DNA of 64,000 nucleotides from Chloroflexota bacterium (GTDB lineage: Bacteria > Chloroflexota > UBA11872 > VXOZ01). The position numbers were made by a program, and so were the translations under genes. The notes beneath the pieces are model-generated. The model ran no database searches, was not told the origin of the DNA, and worked only from the letters and a program-made list of their open reading frames with translations. Of the stretch, positions 28,262 to 32,778 are shown piece after piece. Each line of letters opens with the position of its first letter. Position 1 is the stretch's first letter. The stretch covers positions 1 to 64,000 of the forward strand of contig JAPOQA010000020.1 in assembly GCA_026710945.1 (NCBI GenBank), read 5' to 3'.

Positions 28262-28446
28262 GCGTCTCTTCTCCTTGCTAAAGGCAGATTTCTGGAAGTT
28301 TGGTAGTAGGGTACCAGCTTTACCAATCGATCATACGCGAATGCCGCGAGCACACGCGATTACGTACCCCTCCTCGCTCCGTCTAGCCGGAGCCTTGAGC
28401 CGTTCAATGGGCGCAAGGTAAAGCGGGTAGGCGGCATTTCCTGTGC

Positions 28447-28452
28447 TACAAT
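28447..28452 (+). promoter_or_regulatory. Possible -10 box for leuS
   Basis: TACAAT lies 78 bases before the chosen leuS start. No good -35 sits at the right distance, so this is weak. I found no T-box-like leader. Confidence 0.3.
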
Positions 28453-28529
28453 GGGGTGTATCAAGCGGTAGATTCACACATTTTGACACAACTTTGTACG
28501 TAAAACCGTATGCGGAGGCGTTCGAAAAT

Positions 28530-31193
28530 ATGAGCCAACCGGAAGAGCCGGCATCTGCGACGAAGTCGGAGACCGCGACGAAGTCGGAGACCGCGACGAA
28601 GTCGACGGCCGCCGAGCAAGAGTCGACAAGTGATGTAGAGAGCCCTGCGGAAGCGCCAGCGGAAGCCGCCTCGCCGGAAGCTGCGGTAGACGTGGCGGAA
28701 GCTGTAGCGGCTGTTGCTCCAGTGGAAGCAGAGAAGTCTTCAGAGGACTACCAGCCGCAGGAATTCGAGCAGGCGTGGCAGGCGCGCTGGCGCGATACGA
28801 ACCTCTACAAGACTGAAGACACCGAGGACAGCCGCAAGACGTACTATTGCCTCGATTTCTTCCCCTATCCTTCTGGTGACGGTCTCTCCGTCGGTCACTG
28901 CCATAACTACATTCCCACGGACGTAATCTCCCGTCAGATGCGCATGCGCGGCTATAACGTGCTGCACCCCATGGGCTGGGATGCCTTCGGCTTGCCCGCT
29001 GAGAACCGCGCCCGTGACACGGGCATCGCGCCCCGGCTGACCGTTGACCAGAACACGGCAAATTACAAACGCCAACTCGACCTCATCGGTTGCTCGTACG
29101 ACTGGGATCGCGAAATCGACTCCAGCGCGCCAGAATACTACAGATTTACCCAGTGGCTCTTTCTGCTCATCCACCGCCGCGGCTTGGCGTATAAGGCCAA
29201 GGGCCAACAGTGGTGGTGCCCGTCATGCCAGACTATTCTGGCCAACGAGCAGGTGCACGACGGCCGCTGCTGGCGCTGCGATTCCTTGGTGGAAAAGAAG
29301 AGCCTGGAGCAATGGTATTTCAAAATCACGGACTACGCGGACCGCTTGCTCAACGATTTGGAGAAAATTGACTGGCCGGAATCTACCAAAGAAATGCAGC
29401 GTAACTGGATTGGCCGCAGCGAGGGCACGGAAGCCGTCTTTCTGACGGAATTCGGCGACGAACTGCGTGTCTTTACCACTCGTGCGGATACGCTGTTTGG
29501 CGCTACCTTCATGGTGCTGGCGCCGGAACACGAACTGGTGGACAAGCTCACCAAGCCGGAGCAGAAAGAGGCCGTAGACCGCTACGTGGCCGCCGCCGCG
29601 CGCACGGCGGAGACCGAACGCCAGTCTGCCGAGCGCGAAAAGACCGGCGTTTTCACCGGTTCCTACGCCGTTAATCCCGTGAACAACGAACACATCCCCA
29701 TCTGGATCGCCGACTACGTACTCGTGACGTACGGTACCGGCGCCATTATGGCCGTGCCCGCTCACGACCAGCGCGACTTTGAGTTCGCGCAAAAGTTTGG
29801 CTTGGACGTGCGCGTCGTCGTGCAGCCGCCGGACGACGTCGACTGGGATGTATCCGACGCCTACGAGGGCGAGGGCACGTTGGTCAACTCCGAGGCGTTC
29901 GCTGGTGACACGTCCGCTGCAGGCGGGAAGAAGATAACGGAATGGCTGAACGAACGCGACCTGGGCGGACCTAAGGTGCAGTTCCGCATGCGCGATTGGC
30001 TGATTTCGCGCCAGCGCTACTGGGGCGCGCCCATTCCCATGATCAAATGCCCGAAGTGCGGGTGGGTGGAGATGCCCACGCCGAAGCTGCCGGTGCTGCT
30101 GCCCGAAATCGATGACTTTCAACCGACCGGTGACGGTCGCTCACCCCTCGCCAAGGTGGGCTCATTCATGGCCACCACGTGCCCCGACTGCGGCGGTCCC
30201 GCCGAACGCGAGACGGATACGATGGATACCTTCGCGTGCTCATCGTGGTACTTCCTGCGCTTTGCCGATCCGCAGAACGACGAGTTGCCGTTCGGCCTCG
30301 ATAAGGCGCGCCATTGGCTGCCGGTAGACCTCTACGTCGGCGGCGCCGAGCACGCCACAATGCACCTGATCTACGCGCGCTTCTGGACCAAGGTCATCAA
30401 GGACGCTATGCTCATCGACTTCAACGAGCCGTTTACCAAACTGCGGCATCAAGGCGTCGTCCTGGCCCCGGACGGGAGCAGAATGTCCAAGAGTCGCGGC
30501 AACGTTATCGGCCCGGATGAAATGGTAGACAAGTTTGGCGTTGATGCGTTGCGCGTGTACGAACTCTTCATGGGTCCATTCGACCAAAACACGAGCTGGA
30601 ACAGCGAGGGCATTCCCGGCGCGCGCCGCTGGCTGGTGCGCGTGTGGAACATGCTGCTGGGCCGGGTCGAACAGGGCAGCGAGCCGCTGCCGGTCGAGAA
30701 ATCCGAGCCGGAGTTGAGCCGCTGGATCAACCGCGTCATCAAGCGCGCCGGTGAGGACATCGACGCAATGAAGTTCAACACCATGGTTGCCTACTTCATG
30801 GAGTTCACGAACTGGCTCTACAAAGTCTACTCGCCCGAATTGGCGGCAACGGAGACGTGGAAGCAGTCCATGAAGCAATTCCTCCTGGTGCTGGCGCCGG
30901 TCGCGCCTCACCTGGCGGAAGAGGTCTGGGAGCGCTGGGGACATGAGTATTCCGTGCACCAGCAGGACTGGCCGGAATTCGACGAGGAGTTAATCCAGGA
31001 AGAGACATTCACACTCGTCGTGCAAGTAAACGGCAAGGTGCGCGATACCATCGAGGCCCCCGTCTCGCTGGATGAAGAGAGCGCCCGTGAACTGGCGCTG
31101 GCAAGCGAGCGCGTGCAGCAGTTCTTGGACGGCAAAGACGTAAAGCTGGTGAAGTACGTGCCCGGGCGGCTGGTAAACGTGGTGGTGGGCTAG
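28530..31193 (+). CDS. leuS: Leucyl-tRNA synthetase
   Basis: Charges tRNA-Leu with leucine in the cytoplasm. From the ATG at 28530 it has 887 residues, longer than the usual 810-860 because of an extra N-terminal tail of about 70 residues. The tail is low in complexity (ATKSETATKSETATKS, then Ala/Glu/Pro), with an 18-bp DNA unit repeated nearly three times. The synthetase proper follows: PYPSGDGLSVGH (HIGH motif, about 111-122), the inserted editing domain (about 300-470), RMSKS at about 651-655 (KMSKS motif), and the C-terminal anticodon-binding part ending in VQVNGKVRDTIE and a small RNA-binding tail. GGAGG lies about 12 bases before the ATG; an upstream in-frame start at 28443 is possible but has no site. 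Confidence 0.97.
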   Translation: MSQPEEPASATKSETATKSETATKSTAAEQESTSDVESPAEAPAEAASPEAAVDVAEAVAAVAPVEAEKSSEDYQPQEFEQAWQARWRDTNLYKTEDTEDSRKTYYCLDFFPYPSGDGLSVGHCHNYIPTDVISRQMRMRGYNVLHPMGWDAFGLPAENRARDTGIAPRLTVDQNTANYKRQLDLIGCSYDWDREIDSSAPEYYRFTQWLFLLIHRRGLAYKAKGQQWWCPSCQTILANEQVHDGRCWRCDSLVEKKSLEQWYFKITDYADRLLNDLEKIDWPESTKEMQRNWIGRSEGTEAVFLTEFGDELRVFTTRADTLFGATFMVLAPEHELVDKLTKPEQKEAVDRYVAAAARTAETERQSAEREKTGVFTGSYAVNPVNNEHIPIWIADYVLVTYGTGAIMAVPAHDQRDFEFAQKFGLDVRVVVQPPDDVDWDVSDAYEGEGTLVNSEAFAGDTSAAGGKKITEWLNERDLGGPKVQFRMRDWLISRQRYWGAPIPMIKCPKCGWVEMPTPKLPVLLPEIDDFQPTGDGRSPLAKVGSFMATTCPDCGGPAERETDTMDTFACSSWYFLRFADPQNDELPFGLDKARHWLPVDLYVGGAEHATMHLIYARFWTKVIKDAMLIDFNEPFTKLRHQGVVLAPDGSRMSKSRGNVIGPDEMVDKFGVDALRVYELFMGPFDQNTSWNSEGIPGARRWLVRVWNMLLGRVEQGSEPLPVEKSEPELSRWINRVIKRAGEDIDAMKFNTMVAYFMEFTNWLYKVYSPELAATETWKQSMKQFLLVLAPVAPHLAEEVWERWGHEYSVHQQDWPEFDEELIQEETFTLVVQVNGKVRDTIEAPVSLDEESARELALASERVQQFLDGKDVKLVKYVPGRLVNVVVG

Positions 31194-31669
31194 AGGAGAG
31201 CTGGGCCGCTAAGCGCGTTGGTGCTTTGGGAGTTTGTTCCGGTAGCGCGTGCTCGCAGCCAATTTGTAGCCTTGCGTACTTTTCCTGGGTTGTGTGTCTT
31301 AGTATTCTGAATGTAGGTACCAAGCGCCCTACTTTCATTGCTGGGTGCACTTACGGCTCTGGAGCTGACGAAAGTGGTTGTCGCCAAATTTCGTGCGTTC
31401 GCCACACCGTTCGCCCTGAGCTTGTCGAAGGGCAAGTAATCGGAAGAGCAGTTTCGTTGGCAGCGCCGTTCATACTTCGACAGAGCCTGTGCTGAGCTTG
31501 CCGAAGGGCAAGTGACTACGCTTGGCGTAGTCATGGGACGAGTGCTAACAATTGTGACGCAGAGGCCATTCCGTTCGCCCTGAGCTTGTCGAAGGGCTGC
31601 GGGGCATGAGAGTAGGGCCGGAGCATCTGCAAGACGAGGGGTCACGCAAAGTTCAGGAGGAGCAAAACG
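31194..31669. other. Intergenic region with CTTGTCGAAGGGC repeats
   Basis: Three copies of a CCGTTCGCCCTGAGCTTGTC / GAAGGGC-type repeat (near 31408, 31475-31510 and 31571). No gene. The last 20 bases hold the AGGAGG site of the next gene. Confidence 0.55.
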
Positions 31670-32242
31670 ATGAGAAGACGGAACGTGTTGTCCGGGCTGG
31701 CTTGCGGCGCCGCGGCCGTCGGTCTGAGCGCGTGCGGCCAGACGTTAATCGGCCAGCGGAGCACCGGCGTCGCATTTGTTGACGTCAATGATCTTCCCGT
31801 GCTTGGTAAAGCCCCGGAGCTCATTGACACGACATGGATCAACTCGGAACCGCTCACGCTGGCGGGTTTTCAGGGCAAGTCGGCAGTGGGCTTAGCCTTC
31901 TGGACCTATGGCTGAATCAACTGCCTGAACGATATCCCCGGTCTGGTGGATATACATAATTCCTACGCGGACGATCGCTTTACGCTAATCAGCATTCACA
32001 CGCCTGAGTTCAGCCATGAGAAAGTCGTGGATAACGTGCGCAAGGCCGTAGACCGGCTCGGTCTGCCGTATCCCGTTGCCATCGATAACGACTTCAAGAT
32101 CTGGCGCGCATTTGGCAACCGCGCCTGGCCGACCCTCTACCTCATCGACCGACAAGGCGACGTGCGCATGTCCAAGATCGGCGAAGGCCGCTTCGGCTTG
32201 GTGCGCGGAGCAATCGAATACCTCAAGGAAAACGAAGCCTAA
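31670..32242 (+). CDS. Thioredoxin-like lipoprotein, probable selenoprotein (in-frame TGA as Sec82)
   Basis: One continuous frame of 190 residues if the TGA at 31913-31915 is read as selenocysteine. The start has AGGAGG 8 bases upstream. The N-terminus MRRRNVLSGL...LSAC is a Tat/lipoprotein-type signal. The fold is TlpA/DipZ-like redoxin. The active-site segment reads FWTYG-U-INC, placing Sec82 exactly at the first Cys of the usual C-I-N-C motif and Cys85 at the second. Homology continues after the TGA (SIHTPEFSHEK, YPVAIDNDFKIWRAFGNRAW, PTLYLIDRQGDVRMSKIGEG), which cannot be chance read-through. A SECIS-like hairpin follows at 31932-31953. Predicted extracytoplasmic thiol/selenol oxidoreductase. 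The alternative is a sequencing error or nonsense mutation. No Sec-machinery gene is in the window. Confidence 0.82.
31932..31953 (+). promoter_or_regulatory. Candidate bacterial SECIS hairpin
   Basis: ATATCCCC (31932-31939) pairs with GG-T-GGATAT (31945-31953) with one bulged T at 31947 and a five-base loop GGTCT (31940-31944). A GGUCU loop and a bulged U are also features of the E. coli fdhF element as I recall it, where the bulge is on the 5' side. The loop begins 24 bases after the TGA; in fdhF it is 18, by my recollection. The element lies inside the coding sequence, as bacterial SECIS elements do. Confidence 0.7.
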
Positions 32243-32778
32243 GCCTCTCGTCATCTGATGAAGCGACGACGAAGCCAGCTCGCCACACCTGGCGACCGAC
32301 AGGCTCGTTGGTCTGTGCCACTGTTGCTCAGGAGCATCTTCACGCGTTGCCGATGGCTGCAACGACGATTATTCGACGTACTAGTCGCGCCGCGGCTCAA
32401 CGCGTGGCATGGGATAGTTGCCAATAAGGTTGACAATCCGACATGGCAACTTCGGCTTCCCCTCCTGATTCCCCGAGCAGTGGTACGCGGCTGTTTCAGG
32501 CTGTACCGCCTCTGCAGTGTCAGCACTGATCGGGTCGTGGCGAAAACCATTGGTCCGCCGGTAGCGCACATTATAGGAGTCTTGGCAAGAGTCGGCTCTC
32601 GCCAGCCATTCCAACTCGTGGGTGGCCTACCCATCCCTCCCTGGTGAGCGTGCTCCTACTCCACATGAAGTGCCGTGCTGCCTCGTCGCGCCATCGGTCA
32701 GAATGTGAAGGCTCTCGGCGAAAGGGGCGATAGGTAGCCGCTGTTCGCTCCGGCGCAGAGCGGCTCGTCAGTCTCTTG

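Follow-up and report, generated by a model that had tools for sequence, protein, structure and literature searches.

The window, a 64,000-nucleotide stretch of the forward strand from a Chloroflexota bacterium, is part of contig C20 of a 3.5-Mb assembly that is 98% complete. Downstream of leuS, it carries a gene for a redoxin-type lipoprotein whose reading frame runs through a TGA codon. The features of the locus are as follows.

28443 to 31193, forward strand: leuS (leucyl-tRNA synthetase gene), a conserved neighbor upstream of the redoxin gene
31655 to 31662, forward strand: putative Shine-Dalgarno-like sequence AGGAGGAG, 7 nt 5' of the ATG at 31670
31670 to 32242, forward strand: predicted selenocysteine (Sec)-redoxin lipoprotein gene, 190 codons through one UGA, stop TAA at 32240 to 32242, orthologues in 6/6 genomes of the genus
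31670 to 31738, forward strand: signal peptide predicted from the sequence, with an arginine-rich N-region and lipobox L-S-A-C (Cys22)
31913 to 31915, forward strand: in-frame TGA, predicted Sec codon, residue 82, first position of UxxC
31922 to 31924, forward strand: TGC, second (resolving) Cys85 of U-I-N-C, invariant in a 19-sequence alignment
31932 to 31953, forward strand: SECIS-like hairpin of 8 bp, bulged T at 31947 on the 3' arm, loop GGTCT at 31940 to 31944
32126 to 32134, forward strand: W-P-T motif, cis-Pro position Pro154 of the thioredoxin fold in the fold model

Translation bore out what a sequence-only reading had proposed for this frame: it is open for 190 residues across a single TGA, and that codon falls at the first Cys of the redox site, FWTYG-U-INC. 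The UGA-spanning peptide would be SAVGLAFWTYG-U-INCLNDIPGLVDIHNSYADDR. Redoxin homology likewise continues past the TGA, with three redoxin-type Pfam profiles matching across it above their cut-offs (AhpC-TSA, 42.6 bits; Thioredoxin_8, 36.8 bits; Redoxin, 33.7 bits; the cut-offs of PF08534 and PF00578 are 26.6 and 26 bits). W153 and P154 are invariant in the 19-sequence redoxin alignment, and the lipobox is retained across orthologues and paralogues; a TAT_signal_seq match in the profile search was weak (14.4 bits). As had also been anticipated, gene calling splits the gene into open reading frames at 31670 to 31915 (81 amino acids) and 31946 to 32242 (98 amino acids). Annotation of these genomes therefore probably lists one exported redox enzyme as two separate fragments, a consequence of this splitting by gene callers.

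In the window, as in each of the five sister genomes, the redoxin gene follows leuS, with no functional link between the two genes as far as we could see. There was no match to msrP or msrQ near the gene in these six genomes, and no cytochrome c maturation genes were seen adjoining it in the window. The spacer between leuS and the redoxin gene holds a palindrome-bearing repeat, GTTCGCCCTGAGCTTGTCGAAGGGC, in two identical copies (31409 to 31433 and 31573 to 31597); allowing as many as 3 mismatches revealed no further copy in the window.

In-frame UGA and Sec machinery

The window genome was searched for the Sec machinery, a check proposed in the sequence-only reading, and SelA (559 bits; cut-off, 268), SelB (360 bits; cut-off, 242), SelD (380 bits; cut-off, 125), and tRNA-Sec (67 bits; gathering threshold, 47; called SeC with anticodon TCA by ARAGORN) were all present. 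We considered whether, without any Sec, UGA might instead be read as another amino acid, for example Trp or Cys, through near-cognate readthrough or codon reassignment. Nothing specific favors that reading. TGA is the terminator of 8 of the 24 clear genes in the window, so the code is not reassigned, and in-frame TGA is absent from conserved genes such as leuS. Furthermore, the residue aligned with the TGA in homologues is Cys and not Trp, and a tRNA-Sec with the matching TCA anticodon is encoded. We give this reading next to no weight.

The use of TGA as a normal stop in this genome would also suit a true stop at residue 82, leaving either a pseudogene or a short exported fragment of 81 amino acids. 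However, TGA lies exactly at the catalytic Cys in 6/6 genomes of the genus, in two paralogues, and across the phylum. The genus makes up the whole sampled order, and its named sister-genome records are metagenome-assembled Chloroflexota. No TGC or TGT was found at the site among the six genus genomes, whereas Cys-type relatives outside the genus have TGC or TGT there at all 96 loci. Because all six genus genomes carry the TGA, we regard it as genuine and not as an assembly error. Among orthologues, the sequence 3' of the TGA has a dN of 0.038 and a dS of 0.578 (dN/dS, 0.067), which implies that the downstream part is translated and under strong purifying selection. The conserved TGA and this ratio together make a sequencing error, a pseudogene, or a stop very unlikely; with the Sec machinery and the SECIS-like hairpins also set against it, we find termination at this codon hardly credible.

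Two other genes with an in-frame TGA were observed. SelD itself has one in the active-site motif ASCAGUAGK (L022, contig C41:80333-81262). The other encodes a ResA-like protein (L198, genome G000, contig C39:78010-78348) that scores 111 bits with the NCBIfam model NF041054, below the cut-off of 300; its sister-genome copy (L053) reads WASW-U-GC.

A SECIS-like hairpin past the UGA

The sequence-only reading placed a hairpin with a GGTCT loop and a bulged T 24 bases after the TGA and likened it to the SECIS loop of E. coli fdhF. The hairpin is present, with the correction that 24 nt is the distance to the start of the apical loop and that the stem begins 16 nt past the TGA. The likeness to fdhF holds for the loop but not for the exact fold, since the bulged U of the fdhF element is on the 5' arm. 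In the published bacterial SECIS geometry, the loop has 3 to 9 nt with a G in the first two positions and lies 16 to 37 nt after the UGA, the stem has 4 to 16 bp, and the energy threshold is an MFE of -7.5 kcal/mol or lower (PMC13188914). The window hairpin, with its 5-nt loop, 8-bp stem with one bulge, and 24-nt spacing, falls within this geometry and has an MFE of -8.4 kcal/mol. Its orthologue in L033 reaches -9.2 kcal/mol, and the four others lie at -5.4 to -5.7 kcal/mol against the threshold of -7.5, with a minimal form of -4.9 kcal/mol. When 31600 to 32300 was searched against Rfam, nothing of the SECIS type matched, and the only matches were sub-threshold and attributable to chance.

Taken alone, the fold of the window hairpin is within chance (z of -0.38 against dinucleotide shuffles), and the case for it therefore rests on comparative evidence. 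Hairpin codons +7 to +12 had synonymous changes at 0 of 6 positions, compared with 51 of 82 elsewhere (P = 0.004, six mutually related orthologues). The median energy of the best SECIS-type hairpin was -8.6 kcal/mol in 39 TGA loci and -1.5 kcal/mol in 96 Cys loci; the compared loci and sequences are related to one another, and nominal P values here do not come from independent samples. Both paralogues have the same bulged hairpin, with one compensatory A-U to G-C change. Within the genus set, covariation was seen in 1/6 stem pairs, most pairs being invariant, which is too thin to stand by itself. More distant TGA-bearing relatives keep a hairpin at the same distance, with 99.1% of cells paired and 7 double changes, a level of covariation reached in 0/500 shuffles. 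Relatives with an intact Cys do exist and mostly lack the hairpin, but those with the TGA conserve it, and none of the observations that the sequence-only reading had named as refuting was made. When synonymous codons of the hairpin region were shuffled, the median z was -1.33 for Sec loci and +0.47 for Cys loci. This shift is modest, probably because the protein sequence is itself shaped by the stem.

Relatives and gene neighborhoods in Chloroflexota

Two more genes for Sec redoxin lipoproteins face each other on contig C33 of the window genome, and one of the two has a CcdA-type gene just 5' of it in the same orientation.

L182:1751-2434, forward strand: Sec redoxin paralogue 1, motif FWTYT-U-PVC
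Sec codon at L182:3046, reverse strand: Sec redoxin paralogue 2, motif FWTYT-U-PVC
L182:3619-4416, reverse strand: ccdA (DsbD_TM, 69 bits)

A strong match was present in 109 of 400 Chloroflexota genomes, and 45 of the 109 had one that bore a TGA; the TGA was at the catalytic position in all 29 of these 45 that were read. SelA was found in 44/45 TGA carriers and in 52/64 Cys-only genomes, the lone carrier lacking a match (G322) being 77% complete. Because most sampled genomes have SelA, its presence discriminates the two groups only weakly. The redoxin tree needs about six changes between Sec and Cys.

In one clade of lipoproteins of about 200 amino acids, Sec forms (L141, L152, L162, and L163) and Cys forms (L140, L145, L155, and L160) share one position directly 5' of msrP and msrQ. 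The sequence stretches of L162 and L163 end inside msrP, and the msrQ of the L162 genome was seen in L186. MsrP and MsrQ were identified with NCBIfam equivalog models (L183). A histidine kinase gene is 5' of the redoxin in 6 of the 8 MsrPQ-linked loci; none was matched in L155 and L160 within the 1.5 kb examined on that side. In a fifth Sec form (L159), msrPQ is not adjacent. The cluster is as follows.

L183:2256-6647, L184:4083-8568, and L186:2632-6897, also L140, L145, L155, and L160: response regulator, histidine kinase, Sec/Cys redoxin lipoprotein, MsrP, and MsrQ cluster

This gene order suggests that the redoxin may be a partner for extracytoplasmic methionine sulfoxide repair. The window gene, which is not directly 5' of msrP-msrQ, was rejected as a member of this clade. 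More broadly, the window gene could be one branch of a phylum-wide radiation of DipZ/NHLRC2-type Sec redoxins in which another branch would be a dedicated extracytoplasmic selenoprotein arm of two-component-regulated MsrPQ repair of oxidized proteins, its Sec and Cys forms interchanging; we advance this only tentatively. Related Chloroflexota with a Sec or a Cys version in the same place of the operon offer a natural test of the benefit of selenium to an extracytoplasmic thiol reductase.

Fold, proposed mechanism, and known systems

AlphaFold modeled a thioredoxin fold with confidence (domain pLDDT of >90); residue 82 immediately precedes helix 83 to 99, a thioredoxin-like placement. The closest solved structures were the ectodomain of M. 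tuberculosis DipZ, followed by NHLRC2, SOQ1, and ResA. The assignment of a TlpA/DipZ-type lipoprotein made by the sequence-only reading is upheld by the LSAC lipobox, the match to M. tuberculosis DipZ (2HYX; E value, 5.6e-32), and the fold (TM score, 0.74). The computational analysis finds a conserved TGA at the catalytic Cys, Sec machinery, a SECIS-like hairpin, purifying selection, a thioredoxin fold, and an export signal, and on sequence grounds the gene product is almost certainly an exported redox lipoprotein in which the in-frame stop is read as Sec at the active site.

A selenoprotein at this site could instead be mainly a peroxidase of the peroxiredoxin-like type: outside the membrane, its selenolate would reduce peroxides or hypohalous products, with Cys85 as the resolving residue. 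In favor of this, the top Pfam match is AhpC-TSA, a Sec nucleophile suits peroxide chemistry, and genes for MsrPQ and a two-component system adjoin those of relatives; HOCl induces msrP through HprSR in E. coli (PMC9302797). However, DipZ, NHLRC2, SOQ1, and ResA, which match best in sequence and fold, are thiol-disulfide proteins, the UxxC at the N-terminal end of the first long helix is a disulfide-exchange arrangement, and the paralogues are located with ccdA. We consider a mainly peroxidatic role unlikely. Very probably, the protein is an exported redoxin lipoprotein of the DipZ-ectodomain/TlpA/ResA type with its UGA decoded as Sec, acting in extracytoplasmic reductive repair or thiol reduction.

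For such a thiol reductase, the UGA at 31913 to 31915 would be decoded as Sec by SelB, directed by the hairpin at 31932 to 31953, and the mature protein would sit outside the membrane on a lipid anchor. The Sec82 selenolate would attack an oxidized thiol or disulfide of a substrate protein, and Cys85 would resolve the Sec82 intermediate as a selenenyl-sulfide. For the direction of electron flow, we infer that a CcdA/DsbD-type membrane electron carrier re-reduces the redoxin, because the paralogue locus, as distinct from the window locus, has a CcdA-type gene. The protein would likely serve in reductive repair or thiol reduction, and a role in oxidative stress is suggested by the MsrPQ clade, again away from the window locus. 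The window gene adjoins neither ccdA nor msrPQ, and its partner is thus proposed from paralogues and distant relatives.

The M. tuberculosis DipZ C-terminal ectodomain (2HYX and 5CYY) is 39% identical to the window protein in the aligned fold and, like it, is a redoxin domain outside the membrane. DipZ has a CxxC site, and its fusion partners are a CcdA-like membrane domain and another domain at the C terminus, whereas the window protein is a single-domain lipoprotein of 190 amino acids with Sec. Having no fused CcdA-type membrane domain, it was rejected as DipZ proper. ResA, TlpA, and DsbE (4NMU, 1ST9, and 1JFU) are also exported and share the thioredoxin-like fold (TM score, about 0.65), but the ResA model gives 51 bits, far under its cut-off of 170, and Sec replaces Cys in the window protein. 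The ResA-like WAxxUGC selenoprotein family of NCBIfam NF041054 likewise combines a ResA-like thioredoxin fold with Sec at the active site; the window protein was rejected as a member (15.7 bits against a cut-off of 300; UxxC, not UGC).

The sequence-only reading had held that a Sec-x-x-Cys lipoprotein of this type would be unusual. It is less so, because UxxC selenoproteins already catalogued include a Redoxin family protein (PF08534), a Prx-like thiol:disulfide oxidoreductase (PF00578), and a Thiol-disulfide isomerase-like protein (PF13905) (PMC13188914 and PMC9312934), and Prx-like 1 and 3 selenoproteins have been described (PMC2398784). HEU0032618.1 and MBA3499694.1 are catalogued examples of the PF08534/PF00578 type. 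The window protein shares with the catalogued UxxC redoxins Pfam domains above cut-off, the Sec-first UxxC, and Cys homologues elsewhere; it was placed among them by domains and motif and not by the example sequences. UxxC redoxin selenoproteins are thus known, and the window gene adds one member, as well as evidence for widespread selenium use in Chloroflexota. Neither DipZ nor Chloroflexota is mentioned in PMC13188914 and PMC9312934, the text of the 2026 selenoprotein catalogue has no NHL entry, and we found no prior report of Sec in DipZ or NHLRC2 in the open-licence literature. Within that literature, the Chloroflexota radiation, the MsrPQ linkage, and the NHLRC2/SOQ1-like Sec proteins look new.

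NHLRC2 and SUPPRESSOR OF QUENCHING 1 (6GC1 and 7DJJ) have a thioredoxin domain related to the window protein, and Chloroflexota Sec homologues of the whole NHLRC2/SOQ1 protein share its UINC motif; proteins of this type carry an NHL propeller, whereas the window protein has none. Such homologues, with a thioredoxin domain plus NHL propeller and a TGA at the first Cys of xUINC, were observed in 18 Chloroflexota genomes (L164 to L181), with a covarying SECIS-like hairpin. One of them, L180:1237-2703 (forward strand), the one identified with Pfam and PDB, matches human NHLRC2 and plant SOQ1 over its full length (E values of about 1e-101 to 1e-105).
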